Source: a virus. From it: DNA of 41,124 nt. Below, one piece after another: positions 20,575 to 41,124 of the stretch. A program made the translations under genes and the position numbers. The notes beneath the pieces are model-generated. The model was given only the letters and a program-made list of their open reading frames with translations, was not told the DNA's origin and searched no databases. The stretch's first letter is position 1, and every line of letters starts with the position of its first letter. The stretch spans positions 1-41,124 of the IMG/VR virus record IMGVR_UViG_3300034013_000942; one strand, given 5' to 3'.

Positions 20575-21269
20575 TGAATCGAAAAAAGTTTACGCACTCA
20601 CCTATAGATCTTGGCTATAGTGATCTAGAAGCAAACACTACCACTTCTGGTCGTTTTTATATGACGCCTAATGGTAAAGCCTATCCTAGTATTACTACTG
20701 TATTAGGCATTCGTAACAAAGGTGCACTTCAAGAATGGAGAACACGAGTTGGCGAAGTTGAAGCAGCACGTGTAGCCCGGCATGCAAGCACGCGAGGCAC
20801 AGCTTTACACGCAGCGGTTGAACGATATATTGATAATATTGATTCATATTTTGCTGAAGGAGAGATGCCTCATGTAAAAGATATGTTTAACTCTATCAAG
20901 CCTGTCTTGGATGACCGAATCGATAACGTGTGTCTTCAAGAGGCTCCACTCTACTCAGATCATCTTGGACTCGCTGGTCGAGTTGACCTCATCGCAGAAT
21001 TTGATGGTCGGCTGAGCATAATCGATTTTAAGACAAGTTCTCGAGCTAAAACAGAAGATGAGATTGACAGTTATTTTATACAGATGGCGGCATATGCTAT
21101 TATGTGTGAAGAGCGTACAGGCACACCAGTAAGTCAAGGAGTAATCGTTATGGCTGTAGAAAACAGTTCGCAACCACTGGTTTTTGTGCAAAAACGAGAT
21201 TGTTGGACGGATGAACTTTTTAAGACTATAAATGAATATAATACCAAAAAACTATTTGGACATGCATAA
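20574..21269 (+). CDS. RecB-like PD-(D/E)XK exonuclease
   Basis: The 231-residue protein has the Cas4/RecB nuclease set: RGTALH (74-79), GRVDLIAEF with Asp138, then IIDFKTS with Asp151 and Lys153, and a Q-x-x-x-Y helix (QMAAYAIM). It would be a Mg-dependent DNA exonuclease in phage recombination, repair or host DNA breakdown. The end overlaps the ClpP-like gene. Confidence 0.85.
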   Translation: MNRKKFTHSPIDLGYSDLEANTTTSGRFYMTPNGKAYPSITTVLGIRNKGALQEWRTRVGEVEAARVARHASTRGTALHAAVERYIDNIDSYFAEGEMPHVKDMFNSIKPVLDDRIDNVCLQEAPLYSDHLGLAGRVDLIAEFDGRLSIIDFKTSSRAKTEDEIDSYFIQMAAYAIMCEERTGTPVSQGVIVMAVENSSQPLVFVQKRDCWTDELFKTINEYNTKKLFGHA

Positions 21270-21873
21270 ACACAACATACAAAATAAGGGCTTACTGGAT
21301 CTACTAAAGGGTGGTGCAAATGATTGCTTTACGAGCGACTATGGTGCAGTCAAAGAGTATTATCTTTCTGAAGAGATTGGTGATGCAAGTGACTATATAC
21401 AATGGTTTCATGATATACGCAATAGTCGTCCATCCGATGTAGTAAAGATTCATATCAATTGCCCAGGAGGTAATCTGTTTACTACCATTCAATTTATGCA
21501 GGCACTCTCTGAAACTGAAGCCCATATTATGGTAAGTGTTGAAGGGGCATGTATGAGTGCTGCAACTCTGATCTTTTTGATGGCCGATGAGTATATGATT
21601 ACAGATCATAGCATGTTCCTATTTCATAACTATAGTGCTGGTACTGCTGGCAAAGGTGGCGAGATGTATCATGGCATGGTTCATGAACGCAACTGGAGTG
21701 CAAATCTTTTCAAAGACATGTATTCAGACTTTCTTACCGAAGGCGAGATTAAAGAGATGCTTGAAGACAAAGACATCTGGATGGACGCACATCAGGTACT
21801 TGATCGTTTGGAAAAGCGCGGCAAAAAGATACAGAGTCGCATACGCGCCGAAGAGAAGAAGCAAAAGGCATAA
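21262..21873 (+). CDS. ClpP-like serine protease
   Basis: The protein (203 residues from the ATG at 21262; an alternative ATG at 21232 adds 10) has the ClpP fold markers: INCPGGNLF, the nucleophile Ser in EGACMSAATLIF (Ser99), the catalytic His in FLFHNYS (His122) and a late Asp in KDIWMDAH. ClpP-like genes are known in cyanophage-type T4 relatives. It may act in head maturation or protein turnover. I prefer 21262 because it overlaps the upstream stop by only 8 bases. Confidence 0.85.
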   Translation: MHKHNIQNKGLLDLLKGGANDCFTSDYGAVKEYYLSEEIGDASDYIQWFHDIRNSRPSDVVKIHINCPGGNLFTTIQFMQALSETEAHIMVSVEGACMSAATLIFLMADEYMITDHSMFLFHNYSAGTAGKGGEMYHGMVHERNWSANLFKDMYSDFLTEGEIKEMLEDKDIWMDAHQVLDRLEKRGKKIQSRIRAEEKKQKA

Positions 21874-24381: not shown

Positions 24382-24477
24382 GCTAGAGTGTCCTGAATTG
24401 GTTAAAGGTCCTTCTTTATAAGGGGGTAGAATCGGTCATCGAGCCGTGTGTGGGTTCGAGTCCCACCTCTAGTACCA
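24382..24477 (+). tRNA. Class II tRNA, identity uncertain
   Basis: Acceptor GCTAGAG/CTCTAGT with G1-U72, discriminator A and encoded CCA, perfect T-arm GTGGG/CCCAC, and a 23-base variable arm. The anticodon stem is mostly G-U; the best loop, TTTATAA, gives UAU, which does not fit a class II (Leu/Ser/Tyr) tRNA. The variable-arm sequence GGTCATCGA resembles bacterial tRNA-Tyr. It may be decaying or edited. Confidence 0.65.
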
Positions 24478-24481
24478 CTTT

Positions 24482-24555
24482 CGCACGTTGGCAGAGAAGT
24501 CATGCAGTGGTCTGCAAAACCGCCTAGTCCAGAGCGTTACTGGAACGTGCGTCCA
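24482..24555 (+). tRNA. tRNA-Cys(GCA)
   Basis: Acceptor CGCACGT/ACGTGCG, anticodon loop CTGCAAA, CTAG variable region, TCCA end as in bacterial tRNA-Cys. The T loop AGCGTTA is unusual. Confidence 0.85.
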
Positions 24556-24567
24556 TCTACAACACCT

Positions 24568-24642
24568 GCTCATATCGTCTAACGGTTAGGACTTACGGTT
24601 TTCATCCGTACAATCGGGGTTCGATTCCCCGTGTGAGTACCA
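24568..24642 (+). tRNA. tRNA-Glu(TTC)
   Basis: Anticodon stem TACGG/CCGTA with loop TTTTCAT, T-arm CGGGG/CCCCG, encoded CCA. G1-U72 in the acceptor. Confidence 0.9.
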
Positions 24643-24656
24643 ATAAATAATATACA

Positions 24657-24884
24657 ATGAAAATAGTCATTCGCACCTCAACATACATCAAGGTCGGTCA
24701 ATTTTACCTTTTAGTAAAACTACCGCTTAAGAGCGGTGAACGTCGCTTTAGAGTCACTCGCGATCATTCACGCTTTCAAAACTATTTTGAAATGCACGCT
24801 CTAGGATTTACATGCGGTCGCATGTGGTCTACTCATGCCCAACGCGTACGTGAGAAGCGTTGGTTAAATTCATTTGACGAATAA
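24657..24884 (+). CDS. Small basic protein inside the tRNA cluster
   Basis: A 75-residue basic protein (KIVIRTSTYIKVGQFYLLVK start) between tRNA-Glu and the split tRNA-Asn. An ATAAATA late-like box ends 7 bases before the ATG. No family recognised; its place suggests a mobile or cargo gene among the tRNAs. Confidence 0.55.
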   Translation: MKIVIRTSTYIKVGQFYLLVKLPLKSGERRFRVTRDHSRFQNYFEMHALGFTCGRMWSTHAQRVREKRWLNSFDE

Positions 24885-24892
24885 TTTTACAA

Positions 24893-25165
24893 TCCGACTT
24901 AGCTCAGCGGCAGAGCGGGTGACTGTCATAATGGCAGCTTAAAGTAGAAATACTTTATGAAAAACCAATCAAATTCGGGGAACGCTTTAAAATGCCAATC
25001 CCGAGCGAAGCCTCGAAAGAGGAACGTGTAGAGACTTGACGGTTGGTATCTTACAAGTAATGTTGAAGATAATGAGAAAGTCCAGACTACAAACTGAAAG
25101 GGTAGCGAAAGCTATAGTAGTAGGTAATCACTAGGTCCGTGGTTCGATCCCACGAGTCGGAGCCA
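24893..25165 (+). tRNA. tRNA-Asn(GTT) split by a group I intron
   Basis: Exons 24893-24926 and 25125-25165. Joined, they give acceptor TCCGACT/AGTCGGA, anticodon loop CTGTTAA (GUU) and GCCA end, closely like bacterial tRNA-Asn. The intron breaks the anticodon between bases 35 and 36. Confidence 0.85.
24927..25124 (+). other. Group I intron in tRNA-Asn (198 nt)
   Basis: The 5' exon ends in U, paired with G in P1 (exon CTGT with intron GCAG), and the intron ends in G. The core holds CAAATTCGGGGAACGC, ATCCCGAGCGAAGCC, GTAGAGACT and AGTCCAGACTAC, the conserved group I blocks. It has no open frame and should self-splice. Confidence 0.85.
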
Positions 25166-25222
25166 ATTTTTACGCCTCCTTAGCACAGTGGTAGTGCAGC
25201 TCATTTGTAATGAGCAGGTCGT
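25086..25222 (+). repeat. Duplicated intron-tRNA segment, copy A
   Basis: The intron 3' end, the tRNA-Asn 3' half and the 5' part of tRNA-Thr recur at 25595-25730. Most of it is nearly identical, but the T-arm and acceptor of the tRNA half differ. Confidence 0.85.
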
Positions 25223-25236
25223 GAGTTTAAAACTCT
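25174..25236 (+). pseudogene. Truncated tRNA-Thr(TGT)
   Basis: Identical to the intact gene at 25682 for the first 49 bases, through GCAGGTCGT. It then diverges: no TTCGAAT loop, and no 3' acceptor strand to pair with GCCTCCT. The break is where the late promoter and gene at 25259 begin. Confidence 0.85.
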
Positions 25237-25241
25237 TCTTA

Positions 25242-25249
25242 TATAAATA
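25242..25249 (+). promoter_or_regulatory. Late promoter box TATAAATA
   Basis: Perfect late box 9 bases before the ATG at 25259, inside the inserted segment. Confidence 0.75.
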
Positions 25250-25258
25250 AGGTAATAT

Positions 25259-25585
25259 ATGAATACACATAGCAACATTACCAATGCATATCGTAAAATG
25301 GCTCAGGACTCGTATAACAAGTCACTGGTTGTTCAACAAACATGCGCACTTGAATCCGCCATGGAGATCGATTTAGACGAAGCACTTAAACAAACTTTAC
25401 CTACTAAAGAAAACAAAGTACGCCTTGAAGCATTTATGAAAAAGCTTAATGCTCTTCGCAATGAGTTTCCAGATGTAGTGATTCGCGGAACTCATGATGA
25501 GAAAGTTGAAGCACGTCTTCTCGGTGATGATGGTAATGTTGTTCAATACCTTGGTATGAAAATTGGTTTTGTTCATAAAGCCTAA
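25259..25585 (+). CDS. Late protein inserted between tRNA remnants
   Basis: The 108-residue protein (NTHSNITNAYRKMAQDSYNK start) is helical with a candidate IDLDE|A site at about 37-42 and a C-terminal beta part. No family recognised. It lies exactly between a tRNA-Thr 5' remnant and a tRNA-Asn 3' remnant and has its own late box. I infer insertion or illegitimate recombination into a duplicated tRNA pair. Confidence 0.65.
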   Translation: MNTHSNITNAYRKMAQDSYNKSLVVQQTCALESAMEIDLDEALKQTLPTKENKVRLEAFMKKLNALRNEFPDVVIRGTHDEKVEARLLGDDGNVVQYLGMKIGFVHKA

Positions 25586-25594
25586 TATAAATAA

Positions 25595-25674
25595 ACTACA
25601 AACTGAGAAGGTAGCGAAAGCTATAGTAGTAGGTAATCACTAGGTCACACGTTCGAGCCGTGTCGCAGGAGTCA
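25595..25674 (+). pseudogene. 3' remnant of an intron-containing tRNA-Asn
   Basis: 25595-25633 is the last part of a group I intron ending in G, and 25634-25674 is a tRNA 3' half: TAATCACTAGGTC as in tRNA-Asn, T-arm ACACG/CGTGT, acceptor strand CGCAGGA, then GTCA instead of GCCA. The 5' half is missing. Confidence 0.8.
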
Positions 25675-25730
25675 ATTTTACGCCTCCTTAGCACAGTGGT
25701 AGTGCAGCTCATTTGTAATGAGCAGGTCGT
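25595..25730 (+). repeat. Duplicated intron-tRNA segment, copy B
   Basis: Second copy of the 25086-25222 segment, ending inside the intact tRNA-Thr. Confidence 0.85.
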
Positions 25731-25756
25731 CCGTTCGAATCGGACAGGAGGCTCCA
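25682..25756 (+). tRNA. tRNA-Thr(TGT)
   Basis: Acceptor GCCTCCT/AGGAGGC, anticodon loop TTTGTAA, T-arm with TTCGAAT, encoded TCCA. Confidence 0.95.
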
Positions 25757-25765
25757 GTTTAAAGT

Positions 25766-25843
25766 GCATCCATAGCTCAGTTTGGTTAGAGCACACGATT
25801 GATAATTGTGGGGTCGTTAGTTCGAGTCTAACTGGGTGTACCA
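25766..25843 (+). tRNA. tRNA-Ile(GAT)
   Basis: Anticodon stem CACGA/TTGTG with loop TTGATAA, encoded ACCA, G1-U72 acceptor. Confidence 0.92.
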
Positions 25844-25850
25844 TATTTTA

Positions 25851-25925
25851 CGGGTAAAGGCCGACTGGCGAGGCGCTTGCTTTGGGAGCAAGTTTAGTTG
25901 AGTTCGATTCTCAATTACCCGACCA
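25851..25925 (+). tRNA. tRNA-Pro(TGG)
   Basis: Acceptor CGGGTAA/TTACCCG, loop TTTGGGA, encoded ACCA. Confidence 0.93.
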
Positions 25926-25937
25926 TTTATAGTGTGT

Positions 25938-25963
25938 AAATAGTTCGATTTTAACTAACTCCA
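25938..25963 (+). pseudogene. tRNA 3'-end remnant before the HNH gene
   Basis: A T-arm-like TAGTTCGATTTTAACTA followed by ACTCCA, resembling the tRNA-Ile 3' end. The CCA is followed at once by the late box at 25964. No 5' part is present. Confidence 0.5.
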
Positions 25964-25971
25964 TATAAATA
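25964..25971 (+). promoter_or_regulatory. Late promoter box TATAAATA (leaderless type)
   Basis: Perfect late box 5 bases before the HNH ATG at 25977. Confidence 0.75.
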
Positions 25972-25976
25972 GATTT

Positions 25977-26708
25977 ATGGATGGTTTGAAAACATGTAAA
26001 CACTGCAACGAGTCATTTTCATTAAGTACTTCTCTTTTTGCTAATCATATTAGGTGGTGTGAAAAAAATCCAGATAGAAATAATTGGAAAAAACGAGTAG
26101 CCTCAACTAATATATTATCATTGGAAAGAAATTGTAAAAAATGCAACAACACATTTTCTGTTAAATATAAAGAAGGTCAAACACCTCCGCCGAATTTATT
26201 TTGTTCTAGAAGTTGTGCAAATGCTCGTGGGCCACGATCAGAAGATTTTAAAACAAAGGTTAGAGCAAAATTATTAAAAGACAATACCAATACTTGTCTG
26301 TGTTGTAATACATCATTTTCTGGTAAACGCAAAAAATATTGCTCCAAAAAATGTATTTTAGAATATAGAAAAAGAAATTGGGATGACTATAAAAGATATA
26401 GAAATGAATGTGCTTTTAATTTTTCGTTAAAAAAATATCCACTTGAATTTGATTTTTCTCTTGTAGAAAAATATGGATGGTATCTTCCAAAAAATCGTGG
26501 AGATAATCTAAATGGTGTATCTCGTGATCATATGATATCTGTAAAATATGGTTACGAAAACAATATTGATCCAAAGATTATATCGCATCCTGCTAATTGC
26601 ATGCTATTGCGCCATAATGATAATGTTTCAAAACATACAAAATGCTCGTTGGCATTAGCACAACTTTTAGAAAAAATACAAATTTGGGATATTAAATATG
26701 GGGCCTGA
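25977..26708 (+). CDS. Zinc-finger HNH homing-type endonuclease
   Basis: The 243-residue protein has three Cys-rich fingers (CKHC at about 8-11, CKKC then CSRSC, CLCC then CSKKC) and an HNH module near the end (SRDHMISVKYGYENN ... NCMLLRHNDNVSKHTKC). This is the layout of free-standing homing endonucleases. It is more AT-rich than its neighbours. Its last codons and stop lie in the first bases of the tRNA-Ala gene, and a tRNA 3' remnant precedes it, both signs of insertion at a tRNA gene. Confidence 0.85.
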   Translation: MDGLKTCKHCNESFSLSTSLFANHIRWCEKNPDRNNWKKRVASTNILSLERNCKKCNNTFSVKYKEGQTPPPNLFCSRSCANARGPRSEDFKTKVRAKLLKDNTNTCLCCNTSFSGKRKKYCSKKCILEYRKRNWDDYKRYRNECAFNFSLKKYPLEFDFSLVEKYGWYLPKNRGDNLNGVSRDHMISVKYGYENNIDPKIISHPANCMLLRHNDNVSKHTKCSLALAQLLEKIQIWDIKYGA

Positions 26709-26778
26709 GCTGTGGGCAGCCGGAATCCTTTGCAAGGAATCTGTGAAATGATGAGTTCGATTCTCACCAGGTCCACCA
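26701..26778 (+). tRNA. tRNA-Ala(TGC), slightly degenerate
   Basis: Loop TTTGCAA, acceptor GGGCCTG/CAGGTCC with the G3-U70 identity pair of tRNA-Ala, encoded ACCA. The D-loop is very short, the anticodon stem has an A-A mismatch, and the 5' end overlaps the HNH stop. Confidence 0.75.
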
Positions 26779-26786
26779 TTTTAATT

Positions 26787-26862
26787 GGAGGCATAACTCA
26801 GTTGGTAGAGTAATTCCCTTTTAAGGAATGAGTCATAGGTTCGAGCCCTATTGCCTCCACCA
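26787..26862 (+). tRNA. tRNA-Lys(TTT)
   Basis: Acceptor GGAGGCA/TGCCTCC, loop CTTTTAA, encoded ACCA. Confidence 0.95.
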
Positions 26863-26870
26863 TTTTAATT

Positions 26871-26946
26871 GGTGGTTGTAGTTCAATGGTAGAGCCCCAG
26901 ATTGTGATTCTGGTTGTTGCGGGTTCGAGTCCCGTCGATCACCCCA
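26871..26946 (+). tRNA. tRNA-His(GTG)
   Basis: Loop TTGTGAT, extra 5' G opposite C73 as in bacterial tRNA-His, encoded CCA. Confidence 0.95.
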
Positions 26947-26951
26947 TTTTT

Positions 26952-27026
26952 ACGTCATTGGTGTAACGGTAAGCACAAAGGTCTCCAAAACCTTTTGTCA
27001 CAGTTCGAATCTGTGGTGACGTGCCA
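26952..27026 (+). tRNA. tRNA-Trp(CCA)
   Basis: Stem AAGGT/ACCTT with loop CTCCAAA, discriminator G, encoded CCA. Confidence 0.94.
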
Positions 27027-27027
27027 T

Positions 27028-27102
27028 AGAGGTATAGTGTAACGGTTAGCACCACAGATTTTGATTCTGTTTGTCGAGGTTCGAATCCTTGTACCTCTAC
27101 CA
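27028..27102 (+). tRNA. tRNA-Gln(TTG)
   Basis: Acceptor AGAGGTA/TACCTCT, loop TTTTGAT, encoded ACCA. Only one base separates it from tRNA-Trp. Confidence 0.93.
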
Positions 27103-27107
27103 ACTTT

Positions 27108-27218
27108 GCCGCTAGAGAGGTGCACGGGCTCCATGCCCGGTACATAGGCGCAGATGACGTGCAGGACTGCATATGCGGGTGCGTACGGGAATGTGTCTAT
27201 GTCGCCTCTTTAGTCGGC
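27108..27218 (+). ncRNA. Folded RNA with 13-bp closing stem (not a tRNA)
   Basis: GCCGCTAGAGAGG at 27108-27120 pairs with CCTCTTTAGTCGGC at 27205-27218, 13 pairs with one bulged T. Inside are ACATAG/CTATGT (27142-27147 with 27197-27202) and the hairpin CGGGC/GCCCG. No T-loop or CCA. It lies between tRNA-Gln and tRNA-fMet, so it is probably processed from the same transcript. Confidence 0.65.
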
Positions 27219-27230
27219 TCAATTTTCAAT

Positions 27231-27310
27231 CGCGGGGCAGTCAGTAGTGGTGCTGAACTAGTCTCATAAGCTAGGCTTCGGTGTGGGTTCGACTCCCACC
27301 CCCGCAACCA
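27231..27310 (+). tRNA. Initiator tRNA-Met(CAT)
   Basis: Acceptor CGCGGGG/CCCCGCA with the C1-A72 mismatch of initiators, loop CTCATAA, T-arm GTGGG/CCCAC, encoded ACCA. The D-arm is unusual. Confidence 0.85.
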
Positions 27311-27313
27311 ATT

Positions 27314-27391
27314 TTTAGCAATGACAATCGGTGAGTTAAATGCGCATAAGGCTTGAGATTCCGTGTGGGTCAATAACCATACATTGCTAAA
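27314..27391 (+). ncRNA. Folded RNA closed by a 10-bp stem
   Basis: TTTAGCAATG (27314-27323) pairs perfectly with CATTGCTAAA (27382-27391). The 58 bases between inner 7-bp strands equal a tRNA body, but there is no CCA, T-loop or clear anticodon arm. A hairpin UGUGGGU/ACCAUACA is inside. Confidence 0.5.
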
Positions 27392-27392
27392 T

Positions 27393-27478
27393 GGGTAGGT
27401 ATGCCGTTAAGGAGACGGTTCGGTCTGTAAAACCGACGCTTAAAAGCTCGCTGGGATCGTTACCCAGACTGCCCACCA
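27393..27478 (+). tRNA. tRNA-Tyr(GTA)
   Basis: Stem TCGGT/ACCGA, loop CTGTAAA, long variable arm, T-arm CTGGG/CCCAG, encoded ACCA. The G7-A66 mismatch is a small defect. Confidence 0.9.
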
Positions 27479-27607
27479 TCTTTGTATAAGTAATTTTGCA
27501 ACCGAGCTCAAGAAGAGTGGTGATGCACATAGGTGATTAGGTTCACGCCTTCGGGTTAATATGACAAGTATGCCTGCGTAAGCTCTTCATATATTTTTAA
27601 TGTATCA
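27479..27607 (+). ncRNA. Gap with weak RNA structure
   Basis: No gene. GAAGAG (27512-27517) can pair with CTCTTC (27583-27588), with an inner AGGTG/CGCCT hairpin, suggesting one more small RNA, but the closing stem is short. Confidence 0.3.
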
Positions 27608-27615
27608 TATAAATA
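27608..27615 (+). promoter_or_regulatory. Late promoter box TATAAATA (leaderless type)
   Basis: Perfect box 5 bases before the ATG at 27621. It lies inside a longer in-frame ATG start at 27600, which argues that 27621 is the true start. Confidence 0.75.
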
Positions 27616-27620
27616 GTAGT

Positions 27621-28046
27621 ATGAATGCATTTAATTCTCCATGTTCAGATCCATTAGTTGAAGCTGCAAAGCAAATTCTCGAAAAGGTCGCTATTGCACC
27701 AGTCACTGGCTTTGGACGGTCTGTTCCAGAAAGCATTCAAGATTATCTGCAAGCAATTTTAAATTCTGCCGACACACCCCGTGGGTCAATCACACACGCC
27801 AAATTTTTCGACTCTGGCTATACTGGTGTCTCATTTGAGATTGGTGGACAAGAGTATACGCTCACCATGAGCATGGGCAAGATGGGTGCTGATGACTATA
27901 TTCGCGGCAATATAGCACTCGCCAAAACCGGCACACACAAGCCAATCCTCTCAATTAGAGGTGGCGACAGCCCGAACAGTGTCTTTCCAACAATGGCTGA
28001 CATTGGTAAAATGACACGTGCTGTGTCTGACCTGATCAGACGTTAA
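27621..28046 (+). CDS. Late protein with class 2 capsid leader
   Basis: The 141-residue protein begins DPLVEAAKQILEK (about residues 9-21), the leader shared with the 33-38 kb genes, and has VPE|S at about 33-36 as a candidate processing site. The mature part has an SGYTGVSFEIGGQEYTL strand region and no known motif. A late box fixes the start. Probably packaged in the head; it stands alone inside the tRNA cluster. Confidence 0.7.
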   Translation: MNAFNSPCSDPLVEAAKQILEKVAIAPVTGFGRSVPESIQDYLQAILNSADTPRGSITHAKFFDSGYTGVSFEIGGQEYTLTMSMGKMGADDYIRGNIALAKTGTHKPILSIRGGDSPNSVFPTMADIGKMTRAVSDLIRR

Positions 28047-28054
28047 AACTTTTC

Positions 28055-28128
28055 GCGTCATAAGTGTTACGGCAGCACATTAGACTTCCACTCTGAAGGC
28101 GTGAGTTCGACCCTCACATGACGCACCA
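28055..28128 (+). tRNA. tRNA-Gly(TCC)
   Basis: Acceptor GCGTCAT/ATGACGC, loop CTTCCAC, T-arm with TTCGACC, encoded ACCA. Confidence 0.92.
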
Positions 28129-28132
28129 ATTT

Positions 28133-28232
28133 GGGGTGAAGCTTAGCGGCTTCGATTCTCTTCATACCCTCTACGCTTGATGGGTGCACACTAGACAGCG
28201 CAAGGTTAAATGACATGAGAATAACCCCACCA
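28133..28232 (+). ncRNA. Cloverleaf-like RNA ending in CCA, not a normal tRNA
   Basis: GGGGT (28133-28137) pairs with ACCCC (28224-28228), then ACCA. Inside are GAAGC/GCTTC, a long-range ATTCTC/GAGAAT, and ACCC/GGGT. It is 100 bases, without a T-loop or an anticodon arm I can place. Confidence 0.5.
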
Positions 28233-28416
28233 ATTTTTCCCTGCCATTGTAGGCGATGATCCTACAATGAGCATTGAGGCTAAGAGCGGGTTGGCAACCC
28301 GATGACGCCGAATGTAATCCGACGCAAATTAAACTAGGCTTGGAGTCGCTACCAAGATGAAATAGTCACTGCGTTTCTTCAAGTTGACTCTGGTCAATTA
28401 TTCGGTAGTGGGGAAA
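28233..28416 (+). ncRNA. Multi-hairpin RNA
   Basis: No gene. It is built of CATTGTAGG/CCTACAATG (9 bp), CGGGTT/AACCCG, CTTGG/CCAAG and TTGAC/GTCAA hairpins, closed by TTTTCCC with GGGGAAAA. Such density of perfect hairpins indicates a folded RNA, perhaps of the large ornate classes found beside phage tRNAs. Confidence 0.55.
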
Positions 28417-28423
28417 ATACTTT

Positions 28424-28492
28424 GCGAGAGGGATCATACGGAGATCGCTAGGCCCATAGTCTAGAGAGGAGGTTAAAGCCCTCCCCCTCGCA
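28424..28492 (+). tRNA. tRNA-like cloverleaf with CAT anticodon, no CCA
   Basis: All four arms are present: acceptor GCGAGAG/CCCTCGC (one A-C), D-stem GATC/GATC, anticodon stem CTAGG/TCTAG with loop CCCATAG, T-arm GGAGG-TTAAAGC-CCTCC. C at position 33, the short variable loop and the lack of CCA are odd. It may be a decaying tRNA-Met or part of a larger RNA. Confidence 0.5.
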
Positions 28493-28627
28493 ATTCGTAT
28501 CATGCGCGAATCCAAATATGTCATGACGCAGCTAGGTGTGGTTCCTAGCTAGCCCCAGCCCTGGGTGAGTGTAGCAGCAATCTGTCATGGGCAAATTTTC
28601 ACAAAATTGTGACCTCGGAGGTCAGTT
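28493..28627 (+). ncRNA. Hairpin-rich noncoding stretch
   Basis: No gene. Hairpins ATTCG/CGAAT, GCTAGG/CCTAGC, CCAG/CTGG, ATGAC/GTCAT and GACC/GGTC follow each other up to the second promoter repeat. It may continue the folded RNA of 28133-28416. Confidence 0.45.
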
Positions 28628-28728
28628 TTTCTCTATACGGGGCTTAACTTCGGGACCTTTTTTCACTTTTTTGAAAAAAGTTGTGTACTTTCTCTGCATT
28701 TTAGTGTATAATGATCATGTAAGCAACA
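28628..28728 (+). repeat. 101-bp promoter repeat, copy 2
   Basis: Matches 22054-22154 with two base differences, including the promoter and TGTAAGCAACA leader. Confidence 0.9.
28684..28712 (+). promoter_or_regulatory. Sigma70-type early promoter (repeat copy 2)
   Basis: TGTACT at 28684-28689 and TATAAT at 28707-28712, spacer 17. It drives the 28752-29468 small genes. Confidence 0.8.
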
Positions 28729-28751
28729 AAGAACACCAATACAATAAGAGT

Positions 28752-28949
28752 ATGACCATGCCACCCAACGATGTCCATCCTAACTTAGACTCTGCAAAAG
28801 AAGCATGCAGATTGTATCTCGAAGCTATGTATGAGTTGCAAGATAAGTTTCATGTTTTCGAGACATGTGATGATAGCTGCGTTCAGGCTTATACATGTGC
28901 TCGCTATCTGAATGAAGAGGGTATCATCAAAGAATACACTCACTGGTAA
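28752..28949 (+). CDS. Small early-type protein, 65 residues
   Basis: Starts at the ATG of TMPPNDVHPNLDSAKEACRL; earlier in-frame starts cross the promoter. Acidic, helical, with four Cys. No family recognised. First gene behind the second promoter repeat. Confidence 0.65.
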   Translation: MTMPPNDVHPNLDSAKEACRLYLEAMYELQDKFHVFETCDDSCVQAYTCARYLNEEGIIKEYTHW

Positions 28950-28982
28950 TAGGAACACTAATAAACACCACCACATCTTTAT

Positions 28983-29258
28983 ATGACTATCACTGAATCA
29001 ATTGGCAAGAAAGTAAGGCATGGCTCTCACGGCTATCAAAATGAAGAGACAATCAAGCAAATCTCTTTTTTAAAGGACTCGGTAGAGATTGAGTTTGAAT
29101 CGGGTGTCTTTTCGACCATGTCACCAGGTGAGTTTGGACACTTTATGCGATATGAAGAACTCTCTTATAAAGAGAAGCATCATGAAGGTTCAAGTTATAT
29201 TTTCAGTTATATTTTCTTTTGTGACACTGAAAACCAATGGTATTCACTCATCGACTAA
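28983..29258 (+). CDS. Small early-type protein, 91 residues
   Basis: Mixed beta/alpha protein (TITESIGKKVRHGSHGYQNE start), with a VEIEFESGVFSTMSPGEF strand pair. No family recognised. Part of the early group. Confidence 0.6.
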   Translation: MTITESIGKKVRHGSHGYQNEETIKQISFLKDSVEIEFESGVFSTMSPGEFGHFMRYEELSYKEKHHEGSSYIFSYIFFCDTENQWYSLID

Positions 29259-29264
29259 GACAAC

Positions 29265-29468
29265 ATGAAAACTAGATATTCAATTGTATTTCATACTTCT
29301 GATTGCTATATGGAAGCAATGACATTAAGCGACATTCATACCTATTATGATGTTGATGCTGCAGAACTTGAGCTTTTCTGGAACAGCAAACATAAACGTG
29401 ACAGCGCGGTTCGTCTTCTTAAGCAGCATGACATCGTTGTCGACACATATGACGGCGTACCAATATGA
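29265..29468 (+). CDS. Small early-type protein, 67 residues
   Basis: KTRYSIVFHTSDCYMEAMTL start, alpha/beta pattern; no family recognised. It starts 6 bases after the upstream stop and ends 8 bases before tRNA-Arg. Confidence 0.6.
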   Translation: MKTRYSIVFHTSDCYMEAMTLSDIHTYYDVDAAELELFWNSKHKRDSAVRLLKQHDIVVDTYDGVPI

Positions 29469-29476
29469 AAACACTC

Positions 29477-29551
29477 GGGCATATGATGTAATGGATAGCA
29501 TCAGGGTCTTCTAAATCCTTCGCCTAGGTTCGAATCCTAGTATGCCCGCCA
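29477..29551 (+). tRNA. tRNA-Arg(TCT)
   Basis: Acceptor GGGCATA/TATGCCC, stem AGGGT/ATCCT with loop CTTCTAA, encoded GCCA. Confidence 0.93.
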
Positions 29552-29680
29552 AACTAATAAATAAAATTTCGGTACTGTGGTGGTATCGCTTACAGGAGCA
29601 TGAGGTCCCTAAAGTCGAACAAACATCTCGTCGACAACCTCTAAATTTTCTAAAATTATGACTATGGTAAACACTATTTT
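29552..29680 (+). ncRNA. Possible folded RNA or tRNA remnant
   Basis: No gene. GAGG/CCTC encloses GTCGA/TCGAC at about 29605-29640; a GGTACTGTGGTGGTATCGC stretch before it looks tRNA-like, but no complete cloverleaf is found. Confidence 0.3.
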
Positions 29681-29688
29681 TATAAATA
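29681..29688 (+). promoter_or_regulatory. Late promoter box TATAAATA (leaderless type)
   Basis: Perfect box 5 bases before the ATG at 29694. Confidence 0.7.
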
Positions 29689-29693
29689 TCTAT

Positions 29694-30149
29694 ATGTTTA
29701 TCATTTCATACGATACAATAAAGGACGCGATTGATTCTTCTAATACAATGCGAGAAGCTTCAATCAAATTAAATTTACATTTTTCAACATTTAAACGTAA
29801 AGCAGAATCTTTTGGTTTATATAGACCCAATCAGGGCGCTAAGGGAGGTAAAAAGACCCGAAATATCTCAAAACTAATTAGTTTAACGGAAATACTAGAT
29901 GGAAAGTATCCATACTACCAAACTTTTAAATTAAAACAAAGGTTACTTAAAGAAAAAATTTTTGAAAACAAATGTTCTAAATGTAGTATAAGTGAATGGG
30001 ATGGCGACAAAATAAATTGTGAATTAGACCATATAAATGGTATAAGACATGATCATTCTTTAGGAAATCTTAGGATGCTTTGTCCAAACTGTCATTCTCA
30101 AACTGATACATATAGAGGAAAAAATATTAAAAAAATTATGGCTGTGTGA
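29694..30149 (+). CDS. HNH homing-type endonuclease beside the tRNA-Leu intron
   Basis: The protein (151 residues from 29694; an ATG at 29658 lies before the late box) has a helix-turn-helix-like N-terminal part and an HNH module: CSKCSISEW, ELDHINGIRHDHS, NLRMLCPNCHSQ. It is AT-rich. Its last four codons, ATG GCT GTG TGA, run into the 5' end of tRNA-Leu, the same arrangement as the HNH gene at 25977. It probably spreads itself or the neighbouring intron. Confidence 0.85.
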   Translation: MFIISYDTIKDAIDSSNTMREASIKLNLHFSTFKRKAESFGLYRPNQGAKGGKKTRNISKLISLTEILDGKYPYYQTFKLKQRLLKEKIFENKCSKCSISEWDGDKINCELDHINGIRHDHSLGNLRMLCPNCHSQTDTYRGKNIKKIMAV

Positions 30150-30425
30150 TGAAATTGGTAAACATTGCGGACTTAGAGAAATTTGAGTGCCTTGTTTGAA
30201 AAAACAGGAGTAGAACTTGTCAAATTCGGTGAAGGCTTTAAAATGCTAATCCCGAGCCAAGCCTAAGAAATTAGGAAGGTGTAGAGACTAGACGGCAGGG
30301 ATCTAATGTAGCGATACTATGATCAAGGTATAGTCCAGACCACAAACAGAAATGGTAGTGAAAACTATAGTGGTAAGAAAATCCGTTGCTTCGGCTTGTC
30401 GGTTCGAGTCCGACCACAGCTACCA
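30140..30425 (+). tRNA. tRNA-Leu(TAA) split by a group I intron
   Basis: Exons 30140-30174 and 30378-30425. Joined, they give acceptor GGCTGTG/CACAGCT, loop CTTAAAA (UAA) and T-arm GTCGG/CCGAC. The intron lies after U34, the site I recall for the cyanobacterial and plastid tRNA-Leu intron. Confidence 0.88.
30175..30377 (+). other. Group I intron in tRNA-Leu (203 nt)
   Basis: P1 pairs exon ACTT with intron GAGT through a U-G at the splice site; the last base is G. The core has AAATTCGGTGAAGGC, ATCCCGAGCCAAGCC, GTAGAGACT and TAGTCCAGACCAC. No open frame. Confidence 0.88.
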
Positions 30426-30438
30426 TCTTAAAAAAATT

Positions 30439-30624
30439 ATGAATACAGAACATATTAAAAGTTTGATTGACGCCGAAGTAGAAGCGCTACTCTCTGAGAT
30501 GAATGAACTTAGAGAGCGAATAGCCAAACTTGAGCATGAATCATTTCGTCGATCGCTGAATGTTCAACAACATATTGGGCAATACATAGATCACGAACAA
30601 AAAGGAAACGGACCAGTTTTATAA
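30439..30624 (+). CDS. Small coiled-coil protein
   Basis: A 61-residue protein from the ATG of NTEHIKSLIDAEVEALLSEM with heptad-like ELRERIAKLEHE. It fills the gap between two split tRNAs. Unknown function. Confidence 0.5.
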   Translation: MNTEHIKSLIDAEVEALLSEMNELRERIAKLEHESFRRSLNVQQHIGQYIDHEQKGNGPVL

Positions 30625-30630
30625 TGAAAG

Positions 30631-30913
30631 GGGCTTGTAGCTCAGCGGTAAGAGCAGTCGACTCGATAGGGTCTTCTTATTAGAAATAGTAAGTTAGCAG
30701 AACTTAAATTCAGGGAACGCTTAACGGGTAATGCCGATGCCAATCCTGAGCGAAACCTCGAAAGAGGGACGTGCAGAGACTATAATAGTTCAATCTTAAC
30801 AGGTTATGCTGAAGATTAAGGGATAGTCCAGACCACAAACTGAAAAGGTAGTGAAAACTATAGTGGTAAGCATAATCGATTGGTCGCAGGTTCGAATCCT
30901 GCCGGGCCCACCA
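30631..30913 (+). tRNA. tRNA-Ile2(CAT) or Met, split by a group I intron
   Basis: Exons 30631-30663 and 30871-30913. Joined, they give acceptor GGGCTTG/CGGGCCC, loop CTCATAA, T-arm GCAGG/CCTGC. The anticodon arm and GGTCGCAGG region match bacterial tRNA-Ile2, whose C34 is changed to lysidine, better than elongator Met. The intron splits it after U33. Confidence 0.82.
30664..30870 (+). other. Group I intron in tRNA-Ile2/Met (207 nt)
   Basis: P1 pairs exon GACT with intron GGTC, U-G at the splice site; last base G. The core shows AAATTCAGGGAACGC, ATCCTGAGCGAAACC, GCAGAGACT and TAGTCCAGACCAC. Its 3' 35 bases nearly equal those of the tRNA-Leu intron. Confidence 0.88.
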
Positions 30914-30914
30914 T

Positions 30915-30922
30915 TATAAATA
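30915..30922 (+). promoter_or_regulatory. Late promoter box TATAAATA
   Basis: Perfect box directly after the tRNA CCA and 7 bases before the ATG at 30930. Confidence 0.75.
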
Positions 30923-30929
30923 CTATGAC

Positions 30930-31727
30930 ATGGTTTTACGTGCACTGCTATTCATTACGAGCCTACTTGTAGCTGGATGTGCCGCATGGTTTTCAGTACT
31001 CGGCATTGCTACACTCTTTAGTGGCAGCTATGTTTCAGTGCTCATCATGGCGAGTGCACTAGAGATTGGCAAACTTGTGGCGACGACCTATTTGCATCAC
31101 TATTGGACGCATACATCAGCACTCTTAAAAGGCTATCTCGTCACAGCTACACTCATACTCATGTGTATAACTTCACTCGGTATTTTTGGTTATCTATCGT
31201 CTGCCTATGCTGTAAACTCAATACAATTTTCTAACATCGACTCCCAGGTTGGGTCTCTTCAAGAACGTAAGAGCGGCATCGACTCTGAAGTCTCACAAAT
31301 CAACTCACGAATAGAGACACTAAACGCCGCGCGGCGCTCACAAGAAGAACGCTTGCCAAAGATGTCTGCGGCAAATGCACGACCAATCTATGCTGACATT
31401 GAAAGAACAGCGGCTGAAATGCAGGCACAGCGCGAGAGAATAGTTCAACTGCAAGACAGCAAGAGAGAGCTTGACACACAAATACAAGAGCTAAAACTCA
31501 AGATGTCGGCATCAAAAGACATTGGAACGTTTAAGTTTATTGCCGATCAGTTTAATCTGCCGCTCGATACAATCGTAATGGCCTTTATATGCATAATCAT
31601 CGCTGTGTTTGATCCACTTGCGATTGCACTGCTGCTGTCATACAACAGCACACTTTCCAAAACACTTATGAAAGACAAGTCAGTTGATGTTTCGAATCGC
31701 ATCTATGACCTGTCTGACGGCTTATAA
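30930..31727 (+). CDS. Membrane protein with long periplasmic or cytoplasmic coiled coil
   Basis: The 265-residue protein has three N-terminal membrane segments (about 4-22, 30-48, 66-90), a coiled coil (about 100-200, e.g. QVGSLQERKSGIDSEVSQIN), and a fourth segment (about 212-235). The form resembles DUF4407-like and cyanophage membrane proteins and loosely that of spanins or holin partners, but no lysis motif is present. Late expression is expected. Confidence 0.65.
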   Translation: MVLRALLFITSLLVAGCAAWFSVLGIATLFSGSYVSVLIMASALEIGKLVATTYLHHYWTHTSALLKGYLVTATLILMCITSLGIFGYLSSAYAVNSIQFSNIDSQVGSLQERKSGIDSEVSQINSRIETLNAARRSQEERLPKMSAANARPIYADIERTAAEMQAQRERIVQLQDSKRELDTQIQELKLKMSASKDIGTFKFIADQFNLPLDTIVMAFICIIIAVFDPLAIALLLSYNSTLSKTLMKDKSVDVSNRIYDLSDGL

Positions 31728-31730
31728 ATC
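31723..31730 (+). promoter_or_regulatory. Late promoter-like box TATAAATC
   Basis: One mismatch to the consensus, 5 bases before the ATG at 31736; overlaps the stop of the membrane protein gene. Confidence 0.5.
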
Positions 31731-31735
31731 TTATT

Positions 31736-31945
31736 ATGAATCTATGTGAATTGCCATGCAATCATACTGCTATAATATGCAAAGTTCAAGGGGTCGAATG
31801 TGCTCGACTTCGTGATATGGGTTTTTGTGAAAACACACATATCACAAAAACCCGCGAAGGAAAAAATATTGTCTGCTCAACATGTGGCATACGATTGGCA
31901 TTAAATCAGGAGTTAGCTAAGGACATCATCGTTGATGAGTTATAA
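31736..31945 (+). CDS. FeoA-like small protein
   Basis: The 69-residue protein follows the FeoA/SH3-like pattern: L-x-E-L-P (3-7), AIICKVQG (about 12-19), RLRDMGF (about 24-30), then a strand pair and a final IRLALNQELAKDIIV. Bacterial FeoA partners the ferrous iron transporter FeoB. Extra cysteines (CSTC) are present. A phage copy could adjust host iron uptake. The family call is by pattern only. Confidence 0.65.
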   Translation: MNLCELPCNHTAIICKVQGVECARLRDMGFCENTHITKTREGKNIVCSTCGIRLALNQELAKDIIVDEL

Positions 31946-31948
31946 ATA
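31941..31948 (+). promoter_or_regulatory. Late promoter box TATAAATA before tRNA-Ser
   Basis: Perfect box at the end of the FeoA-like gene; 8 bases before the 5' end of tRNA-Ser(TGA), so a transcript would begin almost at the tRNA. Confidence 0.65.
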
Positions 31949-31956
31949 AATTTTTT

Positions 31957-32046
31957 GGGTGAATGGCAGAGCGGTTTATTGCACTTGTCTTGAAAACAAG
32001 AGTGGCTGAAAGGTCACCGTGGGTTCAAATCCTACTTCACCCGCCA
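31957..32046 (+). tRNA. tRNA-Ser(TGA)
   Basis: Acceptor GGGTGAA/TTCACCC, loop CTTGAAA, long variable arm, encoded GCCA. Confidence 0.94.
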
Positions 32047-32051
32047 TTTTT

Positions 32052-32141
32052 GGAACGTTGACTGAGTGGTCGAAAGTGTTTCCCTGCTAAGGAAATGTAG
32101 GGGCAACTCTACCGTAGGTTCAAATCCTACACGTTCCGCCA
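32052..32141 (+). tRNA. tRNA-Ser(GCT)
   Basis: Acceptor GGAACGT/ACGTTCC, loop CTGCTAA, long variable arm, encoded GCCA. Confidence 0.94.
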
Positions 32142-32161
32142 ACACATATAGATACTTTTAT

Positions 32162-32236
32162 GGGGAGTTAGCTCAGCGATAGAGCATCTCGTTTACACCG
32201 AGTCGGCCGGGGGTTTGAATCCCTCACTCCCCACCA
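32162..32236 (+). tRNA. tRNA-Val(TAC)
   Basis: Acceptor GGGGAGT/ACTCCCC, loop TTTACAC, encoded ACCA. Confidence 0.94.
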
Positions 32237-32268
32237 CTTCTCCCCCTGAAAAACAAAAATAATATAAT

Positions 32269-32997
32269 ATGAAAAAACAAACACAAATCGTTAAAGTCGG
32301 ACTTATTGCAGCACTTGCTACTCTTAACTATGCCTATGCAGGCCCAATCGAAGACGCTCCTTCAGCATTCACGCCAGTGACGCTTGAAACTGGCTACTCT
32401 TCTGATAAGGTCTGGCGTGGTGCTGATCTAGGTGCAAATGAAGCAAATGCAATCGTCACAACGACAACTGAACTTCCTGCGGACGTTTCGTTGGCTTTGA
32501 GCGCTGACTATGCAAACGCTGAAACAACTGGGAAGGACGAAGCTACTGAGCTCTCTGCAATCTTCTCGAAAGAGATTGCTGACTATCTCGTATCTTTGAG
32601 CTATACCTGGTATTCGCAAGACTATGTAGGTCAGGAAGGACAAGCGCAAGAAGCTGGCTTGACTGTATCACGTGCAGTTGGTCCAATCGATCTTTCGCTT
32701 ACTCAGTATATGAGTATTGTGGGTGATAACAATGCTTATAGCGAACTTGCTGCAACATACAGTGATGACTTTGGATCTTCATTGATGCTTGACTTTCGCG
32801 CTGAGCTTGGCTATCTCGCTCAAGAAGGACAGTGCACTCACTTTGAGACCACTGTATCGACTGACATTCCAGTTGTGCAAGGCGTGACCGCTGTTCCGTT
32901 TGTCTCATACTCACTTGGTCTTGATGACTCGGTTGGTGTGCATTCAGACATGAAGAATCTTTTCTTCGGTGGGGTTGAGTTTAAGAAGACATTCTAA
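32269..32997 (+). CDS. Outer-membrane beta-barrel with signal peptide
   Basis: The 242-residue protein has a clear signal peptide (charged start, hydrophobic core VGLIAALATL, cut site AYA|G at 22-25). The mature part has alternating strands and ends in Phe, as barrels inserted by BamA do. GYSSDKVWRGADLG near the start matches the S-D-x-x-[F/W]-R-G signature of TorF-like outer-membrane proteins. It would sit in the host outer membrane, for example as a pore or a receptor mask against superinfection. A strong terminator follows. The GC content is higher than in neighbours, which suggests acquisition from a host. Confidence 0.8.
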   Translation: MKKQTQIVKVGLIAALATLNYAYAGPIEDAPSAFTPVTLETGYSSDKVWRGADLGANEANAIVTTTTELPADVSLALSADYANAETTGKDEATELSAIFSKEIADYLVSLSYTWYSQDYVGQEGQAQEAGLTVSRAVGPIDLSLTQYMSIVGDNNAYSELAATYSDDFGSSLMLDFRAELGYLAQEGQCTHFETTVSTDIPVVQGVTAVPFVSYSLGLDDSVGVHSDMKNLFFGGVEFKKTF

Positions 32998-33017
32998 TAT
33001 TATAAGAATATAAAACA

Positions 33018-33053
33018 AAAACGGAGCCTTCTTTATGTTGGCTCCGTTTTTTA
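33018..33053 (+). terminator. Rho-independent terminator after the barrel gene
   Basis: AACGGAGCC (33020-33028) pairs with GGCTCCGTT (33040-33048), extendable by A-T pairs, followed by TTTTT. Confidence 0.93.
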
Positions 33054-33056
33054 TTT

Positions 33057-33140
33057 GGGCAAGTGGTGTAATGGTAGCCACGCTAGACTTAGGATCTAGT
33101 GCAGTGATGCGTGAGAGTTCGAGTCTCTCCTTGCCCACCA
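33057..33140 (+). tRNA. tRNA-Leu(TAG)
   Basis: Acceptor GGGCAAG/CTTGCCC, loop CTTAGGA, long variable arm, encoded ACCA. Confidence 0.93.
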
Positions 33141-38472: not shown

Positions 38473-38727
38473 ATGAAAATCAAGGATAAAAATGGTGTTC
38501 AGTTTGAGCTTGATGATTGCACAATTCTTCAAATCGCTCTCAATAAACTACGAGAAGTCTATGATTGGCAATCAAATTACTATATTGACACTGCTAGCAA
38601 CAAGGTGTTAAAGACAGAAACATACCACACAACTCATAGTTGGGACACCACAAGTGAAGTGCGTGATGCAACAGTTGATGACCATCGCTTTTCTGCAGTG
38701 CTTGCTAAATTAGTTTGTGGGAGATAG
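38473..38727 (+). CDS. Small phage protein, 84 residues
   Basis: Starts at KIKDKNGVQFELDDCTILQI just after a promoter. Alpha/beta, no family recognised. Its 3' end overlaps the convergent fucosyltransferase-like gene by 18 bases with no terminator between. Confidence 0.65.
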   Translation: MKIKDKNGVQFELDDCTILQIALNKLREVYDWQSNYYIDTASNKVLKTETYHTTHSWDTTSEVRDATVDDHRFSAVLAKLVCGR

Positions 38728-39516
38728 CTTATGTTTTGTAATTGGCACTCGATAGAGCCAGTGTACTGAGTCGCTAAATCCTGAGCCCCAACCATGCACG
38801 CTAAATTGATGTATATGTCGTGCTCGTGATAGGATAAAAAAATCTACTAGCGTGTCTAGAGTGTTGTCATTATTAAGTGCTAGATGAGACGGTTTTGAAG
38901 ATGTACAACAAAAGCCATATCTATTGCTTACTAGAGTCTTTAACTCTGCACAGTCCGACATAACTATATAATTTTTTCCGCTTAATGCTTTTAGGTGTGG
39001 GTGAAGCATATCCATCAATTCATTTAATGATAGATGCACAGTATCTCCTATTTGTGTATTAAATGCTAACAAGTCGCCGGCACGTATGTGTATTATTCCG
39101 TAATTACCATACGCGTCATACGCTGTTTTAATTGCAGACTCTAAACACTGATTTGGAATAAAAAAATCTCTTACTCGCTTTGAAACAATTGAAGCAATTT
39201 TAAATGTTGGCCAAACATTTGTATAAATGTATAAATTTTCATGTTGCAACGTTTTTAAATTTATGTTTGACTTTAAATGACTTTTAAGAGCTCGTATAGT
39301 AAAATTGGGTATATCTTGCAAGTTTAGTATAGAGTCTATAGTTGGTGTAGGCGCATCGCATCGCTGAACTATATATTTTCCAATTGGATGGTGAGACAAA
39401 TCAACTTGAAACGGTAAACCATATTCAATACAAAGTTGTTGACTTGCAATACTACCTCGTATAAAGTCACCTAAACCCATTCCTTTTTCTTTTATAAAAT
39501 ACGAGTTGACTAACAT
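38710..39516 (-). CDS. Fucosyltransferase-like glycosyltransferase (minus strand)
   Basis: The 268-residue protein has GMGLGDFIRG near its start and IIHIRAGDLL (about 141-150), the H-x-R-x-G-D motif of GT11/NodZ-type fucosyltransferases that bind GDP-sugar, plus a late DTLVDFFILSRARHIHQFSV typical of the fold. It may modify a virion or host glycan. I start at the ATG at 39514-39516, after the minus-strand late box; a longer start would run through that box and add a hydrophobic stretch. It is convergent with 38473-38727. Confidence 0.72.
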   Translation of the reverse strand: MLVNSYFIKEKGMGLGDFIRGSIASQQLCIEYGLPFQVDLSHHPIGKYIVQRCDAPTPTIDSILNLQDIPNFTIRALKSHLKSNINLKTLQHENLYIYTNVWPTFKIASIVSKRVRDFFIPNQCLESAIKTAYDAYGNYGIIHIRAGDLLAFNTQIGDTVHLSLNELMDMLHPHLKALSGKNYIVMSDCAELKTLVSNRYGFCCTSSKPSHLALNNDNTLDTLVDFFILSRARHIHQFSVHGWGSGFSDSVHWLYRVPITKHKLSPTN

Positions 39517-39527
39517 AGTTATGATTA

Positions 39528-39535
39528 TATTTATA
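39528..39535 (-). promoter_or_regulatory. Late promoter box, minus strand, of an overlapping divergent pair
   Basis: TATTTATAAATA at 39528-39539 contains TATAAATA on both strands. The minus box lies 11 bases before the fucosyltransferase-like start. Confidence 0.7.
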
Positions 39536-39539
39536 AATA
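39532..39539 (+). promoter_or_regulatory. Late promoter box, plus strand, of an overlapping divergent pair
   Basis: Plus-strand member of the shared TATTTATAAATA. Transcription from it would lead into the glycosyltransferase at 39570 with a leader of about 25 bases. Confidence 0.7.
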
Positions 39540-39569
39540 ACACTATGAATAAAATTACAACTATAATAT

Positions 39570-40364
39570 ATGTATAGTATAGTATATAAAACATATGAGA
39601 ATGATTTAAAATGGTTAAAATATAGTTTATCTAGTTTAAATAAGTTTTTGACTGATGATAATTATGAAATAGTAATATATTATCATGATGAGTGTAAAGA
39701 ATATTTAGATAATATCATATCTAATATTAGTTTAAACTGTGAAATAAGACTAATACCTGTAACTTATGACATAAATGGTTATATTAAGCAAATGGTTGTT
39801 AAGTGTATGTGTTTTATGGATATAGAAAATGATTATATAATGATATTGGACTCAGATGTTATATTTAATGATTATTTTTCATACAATGATATGATATCCA
39901 ATGGTAAAATAAATTGGTTCTTTTTAAATAGAACTAAAGAAAATTATAATGACAATCAATGGTTAATATGGCAAGATGCCGTATTTGGAATGACTAATCA
40001 CGAAATGAATAAATATTATATGTATAATGGATTTCCGTTTTTATTTAAAAAAGAAACTTTAGAAAAAGCTTATAGTAAATTTATAGAAATAAATGGATTA
40101 TCTTATAATGATTTTTGTAAAAATAAGTTAGCATTAAATAATGTTAATGTTTATGATAAAATAACAGGCAGCAATGGTAAATTTGAAATAATGGCAACTA
40201 TATTTGAAGAATTTGAATATTTAGGATGGTTTTCTGATAAATTTACAGATGATTATAATTTTATAGAAGGTTCAAATAAATTAAATATAAGAAAACAATT
40301 TTGGTCGCACGGTGGGTTAAGTAAAAATATTGAAAGCGAAATTTATGATATGCTAAAAAAATAA
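39570..40364 (+). CDS. Glycosyltransferase with DxD motif
   Basis: The 264-residue protein shows a GT-A pattern: IVYKTYENDLKWLKYSLSSL start and IMILDSDVIF (91-99) with the metal-binding D-x-D at 94-96. It resembles the DUF6492-type family from memory. The DNA is far more AT-rich than the phage core, suggesting recent transfer. Sugar and acceptor unknown. A short out-of-frame peptide frame (NKITTIIYV) from the ATG at 39545 precedes it. Confidence 0.75.
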   Translation: MYSIVYKTYENDLKWLKYSLSSLNKFLTDDNYEIVIYYHDECKEYLDNIISNISLNCEIRLIPVTYDINGYIKQMVVKCMCFMDIENDYIMILDSDVIFNDYFSYNDMISNGKINWFFLNRTKENYNDNQWLIWQDAVFGMTNHEMNKYYMYNGFPFLFKKETLEKAYSKFIEINGLSYNDFCKNKLALNNVNVYDKITGSNGKFEIMATIFEEFEYLGWFSDKFTDDYNFIEGSNKLNIRKQFWSHGGLSKNIESEIYDMLKK

Positions 40365-40365
40365 T

Positions 40366-41082
40366 ATGAAATCAATTCATGATAACAATTTTATTTTACA
40401 GTTAGAACATGAAATAAAAGAAAAACTTTGCATCAGCGAAATTCAATCTAACTCTCAACTAAATCAAGATCTATTTGTATTGATTTTAAAAAATTTTAAA
40501 ACAAATGGTATTTTTGTAGAATTTGGAGTGTGTGATGGAATATTTTTAAGTAATAGTTTTATTTTAGAAAAAAAATATAATTGGAGTGGAGTTGTATGTG
40601 AACCATTAAAAAGTTTTCAACCAAAGCTATCGCAAAATAGAAACTGCTCTATAGATCATAGAGCAGTATATTCATCTAGTAATTTAACGGTTGAATTTAG
40701 AGAAATATCTGGAAATGAAGAACTTTCTGGAATATGTTCTTCTTTTTTAGAGGATAATTGTGAAATTATCAGAAATGAAAACTATATATCATATCAAGTT
40801 GAAACTATAAGCTTAACTGATCTTTTAGACGATTATAATATTCCGGTTTCAATTGATTTTATTTCTATTGACACAGAAGGTTCAGAATTTGATATTCTAT
40901 CGAATTTTAATTTTGATAAATATGACGTTGATATTTTTACAGTAGAACATAATTATATTCATAGCAAACGGGAAGAAATTAAAAATTTAATGGAAAAGAA
41001 CCATTACACTCGAATTCTTACAGATATATCTCAGTGGGACGACTGGTATGTTTCCAATAAATTTTTAAATACGAGAAATTAA
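40366..41082 (+). CDS. FkbM-family methyltransferase
   Basis: The 238-residue protein has the SAM-binding FVEFGVCDGIFLS (50-62), ending in Gly and Asp, and IDFISIDTEGSEFDIL later, both marks of FkbM methyltransferases that act on sugars or lipids. It starts 1 base after the glycosyltransferase stop, so the two form one unit, probably building a methylated glycan. AT-rich like its partner. Confidence 0.85.
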   Translation: MKSIHDNNFILQLEHEIKEKLCISEIQSNSQLNQDLFVLILKNFKTNGIFVEFGVCDGIFLSNSFILEKKYNWSGVVCEPLKSFQPKLSQNRNCSIDHRAVYSSSNLTVEFREISGNEELSGICSSFLEDNCEIIRNENYISYQVETISLTDLLDDYNIPVSIDFISIDTEGSEFDILSNFNFDKYDVDIFTVEHNYIHSKREEIKNLMEKNHYTRILTDISQWDDWYVSNKFLNTRN

Positions 41083-41092
41083 TAACTTAAAT

Positions 41093-41124
41093 GGGTGTGA
41101 CATGGTTTCGACATGACTGTTGAA
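41093..41124 (+). ncRNA. ssrA: 5' end of a tmRNA gene (cut by window end)
   Basis: GGGTGTGACATGGTTTCGAC followed by ATGACTGTTGAA fits the start of one-piece tmRNA (acceptor strand, then TGG-x-TTCGAC), nearest to the cyanobacterial form with ATGGTTTCGACA. Only 32 bases are visible; the tag frame and 3' end lie beyond the window. Confidence 0.7.

Follow-up and report, generated by a model that had tools for sequence, protein, structure and literature searches.

The window analysed here is a viral record from IMG/VR of 41,124 bases, whose last 32 nucleotides (41093..41124, + strand) are the 5' end of a one-piece tmRNA gene and hold just nucleotides 1-32 of a 327-nt RNA. The Rfam model RF00023 matches this stretch with 17.5 bits (E = 1.9e-5) and the 3' end cut off, and its core, GGTTTCGAC, has a single occurrence in the whole window when both strands are counted. 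The match lies below the gathering score and was unreported in a default Rfam scan and by ARAGORN on the window, because the gene is cut by the contig end. It comprises the 5' strand of the acceptor stem, GGGTGTG (41093..41099, +), and that of helix H2, CATGAC (41112..41117, +). Alignment and pair counts place the partner of the former, C(A/G)CATCC, outside the window with the G3-U70 pair kept; the partner of the latter, GTCATG, also lies outside the window, just before the T arm, and H2 is invariant in all sequences. Directly upstream, a gene for an FkbM-type methyltransferase (40366..41082, +; Pfam PF05050, E = 4.4e-16) ends 10 nt before the tmRNA, while downstream of the tmRNA are a sigma-70-like promoter (TTTACA-17-TATAAT) and the gene for a UV endonuclease (UvdE, E = 4.4e-38 in the related genome G004). 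Rfam reported no riboswitch near the tmRNA. Further upstream in the window are an array of 21 tRNA genes (24382..33140, +) and a gene for a ClpP-like serine protease (21232..21873, +), both of which are discussed below.

Five further viral contigs contain the exact 32-mer, and all of them carry a full-length, 327-nt tmRNA (81.6-87.6 bits). One of them, L003 (IMGVR_UViG_3300044732_003471, a 37,853-bp contig), shows 100% identity in the window stretches 24000-33200 and 33000-41124, without a single mismatch in the final 6,253 bases of the window, and contains the exact continuation of the gene (6202-5876, - strand). Hence, the missing 295 bases of the tmRNA can be read from L003. With a shorter search pattern, ten viral contigs in all were found to share the tmRNA: Rfam recognised complete genes in L018, L019, L021 and L022, and the tenth copy, in L020, proved complete (84 bits) once the whole contig was searched. 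The other nine complete copies cover positions 1-374 of RF00023, the general one-piece model and the best clan member for this RNA, with scores of 81.6-87.6 bits against a gathering score of 47. The RF00023 match and the full genes in overlapping and related contigs thus bear out the original prediction that the final 32 bases are the start of a tmRNA, and the continuation contig supplies both the tag frame with a hydrophobic end (LAA) and the tRNA-like 3' end (TTCGA...CCA) that it anticipated.

The anatomy of the RNA (in L003 numbering) begins with a 7-bp acceptor stem (1-7/317-323) in which G3-U321, equivalent to the alanine identity pair G3-U70, is present in all sequences, and which is followed by A324 (A73) and an encoded CCA; along with the T arm (300-304/312-316, loop TTCGATC) these make up an alanine-type end. 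Helix H2 (20-25/291-296) is extended by 33-41/276-284, beyond which come a PK1-like element (stems 51-54/60-63 and 55-59/68-72), a GCGG/CCGC hairpin (104-107/113-116) whose loop holds the stop codon of the tag, and a PK2-like element (118-124/142-148 and 131-136/160-165); three further hairpins are also present. Each of the 73 tested pairs, those of the possible PK1 and PK2 included, forms in every one of the six distinct sequences. Compensatory changes on both sides were observed in 5 pairs (10 cells, with none of 500 shuffles as high), a signal abolished by sliding the pairing partners; these 5 pairs come from few and closely related sequences, with 92-100% identity to L003. In PK1 and PK2 all pairs form in all sequences, yet neither long-range stem has a two-sided change, and the second strand of PK1 could instead pair with a duplicate TGCAC at 46-50 as a simple nested hairpin. 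Taken together, the predicted anatomy and its conservation argue for a working tmRNA.

The frame ...AAA AAC GAA AAA GAT ACA CTA GCT CTC GCG GCA TAA, which encodes the conserved (N)EKDTLALAA* and ends in LALAA, is open in 10/10 contigs, and the tag region (nt 75-121) holds 0 of the 37 variable alignment sites (about P = 0.0025 under random placement). A scan of IMG/VR for DNA coding for KDTLALAA* returned the same ten contigs only, which suggests that the tag is confined to this clade. The E. coli resume codon directly follows a spacer of 11 nt that separates it from PK1, and the A lying four bases ahead of the codon (A86) is indispensable (PMC2481249). The GAA codon at position 83 of the phage RNA resembles this arrangement in having a 10-nt spacer after PK1 and an A at -4; hence, translation most likely resumes at GAA-83 to give a predicted tag of A-EKDTLALAA. 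Against this assignment, the usual resume codon is GCN, and the -5 position is A instead of U. Two neighbouring codons appear less likely: AAC-80, with a 7-nt spacer and G at -4, which would yield A-NEKDTLALAA, and AAA-77, with A/C at -4. ARAGORN instead reads a tag of 27-32 aa from the GCA at nt 70 (AREKRKRYTSSRGITAPT..., AREKRKRY...), which we rejected: L002 and L003 have lost its stop, which is hence unconserved; its GCA start overlaps PK1; and a hydrophobic LAA end is missing. Across the phage tmRNAs this program gave five wrong tags and missed four complete copies.

That the gene is phage-encoded, as originally proposed, is supported by the T4-like helicase, terminase and RNR, which lie either on these contigs or on those of near relatives. 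The two ends of the relative G004 (173,760 bp) are near-identical over 210 bp, a single difference being seen, so that G004 is probably a complete genome of about 174 kb. Its terminase is closest to that of Phage C48C1 (Kyanoviridae, 60%), followed by that of Melnitz (46%), and the helicase of the window is closest to those of T4-like cyanophages and C48C1. The carrier is a freshwater T4-like phage related to Kyanoviridae. A search of the carrier phage for a psbA/psbD-type photosystem reaction-centre gene found none, no SmpB was detected in eleven records, among them G004, and G004, G006, G007 and G009 showed no C-terminal domain of a Clp unfoldase. The nearest phage, C48C1, returned just tRNA-sized, below-threshold matches to the tmRNA model, and a nucleotide search of INPHARED with the phage tmRNA gave one weak 36-nt match (E = 0.1). 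The search for a host brought up no close bacterial tmRNA: the bacterial loci retrieved with the 5'-end pattern reach only about 60-75% within the parts that align, and 398 sampled genomes from the phylum of G024, a Nevskia MAG, yielded one weak 47-nt match and none of full length.

The tRNA array defines a translation-related region with 18 uninterrupted genes and three interrupted by group I introns; these three genes near the tmRNA are more unusual than the tmRNA itself. The tRNA-Leu(TAA) gene (30140-30425) is split by a group I intron (RF00028, 61 bits; 203 nt after position 36 according to ARAGORN) and is uninterrupted in the relatives L091 (G004), L019 and L020, making the intron a with/without difference. 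The tRNA-Met(CAT) gene (30631-30913) has a 207-nt group I-like intron that Rfam leaves unreported at the gathering threshold; it is likewise split in G004, L019 and L008, and the matching part of the L020 array has an uninterrupted tRNA-Met(CAT). A third tRNA gene (24893-25165) also contains a group I intron (73 bits, 24917-25105); ARAGORN calls it Thr(GGT), whereas its exons fit tRNA-Asp(GTC) better, and G004 carries both a split gene of this type and an uninterrupted tRNA-Asp(GTC). Two of the three split genes have intron-free counterparts in relatives. Elsewhere in the window, an abiF RNA motif (RF03085, 47 bits; 21963-21999) lies directly downstream of the ClpP-like gene, and an intergenic repeat of ~110 bp ending in a promoter-like TGTATAATG box occurs at 22060-22150 and 28620-28740, as well as in many places in G004. 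Being scattered through the phage genomes, it is possibly a repeated promoter or terminator-promoter unit.

When compared with known tmRNAs, the phage RNA resembles the bacterial one-piece ssrA (RF00023) in its G3-U70, A73, CCA acceptor, T arm and H2, as well as in the PK1-like element 10-11 nt before the tag, the stop codon in a hairpin and the ALAA end of the tag. It differs in its length of 327 nt and in its far lower model score (82-88 bits, against 184-197 bits for three bacterial one-piece tmRNAs). Unlike E. coli tmRNA, its resume codon is probably GAA, and unlike the E. coli tag AANDENYALAA, the phage tag is without the AAND..Y part, which is the SspB-binding part. We found no support for the suggestion that the gene is close to the cyanobacterial type: the two-piece cyano_tmRNA model (RF01851) had no match at E <= 0.001 in the three clade contigs G002, G004 and G006, and we rejected this class even though the control was a weak one, with S. 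elongatus itself matching only below the cut-off. The best match to RF00023, the ALAA end of the tag and the psbA/psbD search point the same way.

Phage tmRNAs as such are already published, being known from the mycobacteriophages Bxz1, Catera and Wildcat and from Bacillus phage G (PMC4131195). By January 2021 tmRNA had been recorded in 402 phages with 133 distinct structures, and two-piece forms are known in aquatic phages (PMC9004378). As in Bxz1, Catera, Wildcat and phage G, a complete tmRNA gene is housed here in a large tailed phage genome, but the carrier belongs to a different phage group. Methylophilales phage Melnitz is likewise a T4-like Kyanoviridae relative with a tmRNA; however, its tmRNA is of the permuted, two-piece kind and is accompanied by a glutamine riboswitch (PMC9004378), whereas the present one is one-piece. 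Our searches also recovered many viral contigs (L065-L089) with a different tmRNA 5' domain, which looks two-piece or permuted. Most of these show no clear T arm and CCA end within 460 nt downstream, and their tags are varied (e.g. ANDETFALAA, ANSSEYALAA). One jumbo viral contig (L087/G023; IMGVR_UViG_3300017565_000001, 424,529 bp) combines a tmRNA-like 5' half, with the tag ...ANDNVYAAAA, and two ORFs for Clp-type unfoldases (423 and 773 aa).

We consider it very probable, from the comparative evidence, that this is a functional one-piece ssrA gene of a freshwater T4-like phage, the first tenth of which lies in the window. Host AlaRS would load the 327-nt RNA with alanine, and the RNA would bind the host SmpB and EF-Tu; since SmpB went undetected in the eleven records, these host factors would serve the phage tmRNA, and the phage presumably borrows the host SmpB. 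During infection, ribosomes that have stalled because their mRNA is broken or endless would then take up the charged RNA, which would append a short tag with the terminus ...EKDTLALAA and set the ribosome free. The tagged fragment would thereby be marked for proteolysis of the host ClpXP type. The ALAA end of the tag we take to be a ClpX-type degron, and host ClpXP offers the simplest degradation route because the phage is without a detectable Clp unfoldase.

A different fate for the tagged proteins is conceivable. The Glu-codon start of the tag and its missing SspB-binding part could reflect a reshaped tmRNA that uncouples tagging from delivery by host SspB, and maybe steers it to another protease, possibly the phage ClpP-like one; we regard this as improbable. 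Slightly more doubtful is a phage-owned pair, in which the tag routes proteins to the ClpP-like protease, a connection already raised in the original prediction. The product (PF00574, E = 6.2e-8; PHROG 1827) is probably catalytic, as its alignment to ClpP (7m1l/9ndj) reveals a likely Ser/His/Asp triad, and both genes are shared by the phage of the window and the near-complete G004. However, related ClpP-like genes are present in 1,692 phage records, and a tmRNA was found in none of four tested phages with such a gene; hence, a special partnership is unsupported. Moreover, the two genes are ~20 kb apart, and the Clp unfoldase C-terminal domain went undetected in G004 and the three other genomes searched.

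The remaining alternatives deny the RNA a role in rescue. As ssrA is a known integration site with fragments occurring in prophages (PMC9004378), and the Rfam score is low relative to bacterial genes, the phage copy might be a decayed or passenger tmRNA without function, such as a recombination relic at a host ssrA attachment site. Yet nine contigs carry the entire gene, acceptor through CCA, as does the tenth once searched along its full length; all tested stems are kept, with compensatory changes; variation elsewhere in the RNA leaves the tag frame unchanged; and no integrase was seen at the locus, albeit without a dedicated search. This makes such a relic very unlikely. Least probable of all is a decoy that would sequester the SmpB of the host and inhibit its trans-translation, as suggested for the form consisting of only the tRNA-like domain in mycobacteriophage DS6A (PMC4131195). 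While a phage with no detected SmpB gene would fit such a role, a decoy would not need the mRNA-like domain, the A at -4, the LAA-ending frame or the stop codon in a hairpin, all of which are kept.

Returning to the functional tmRNA, the gene together with the large tRNA set would most likely sustain translation while host RNA is degraded. The new one-piece clade in T4-like aquatic phages is an addition that extends the known phage tmRNAs. As ARAGORN can miss or mis-frame such compact RNAs, surveys based on it may undercount them, and the predicted tag of this clade is directly testable by proteomics.
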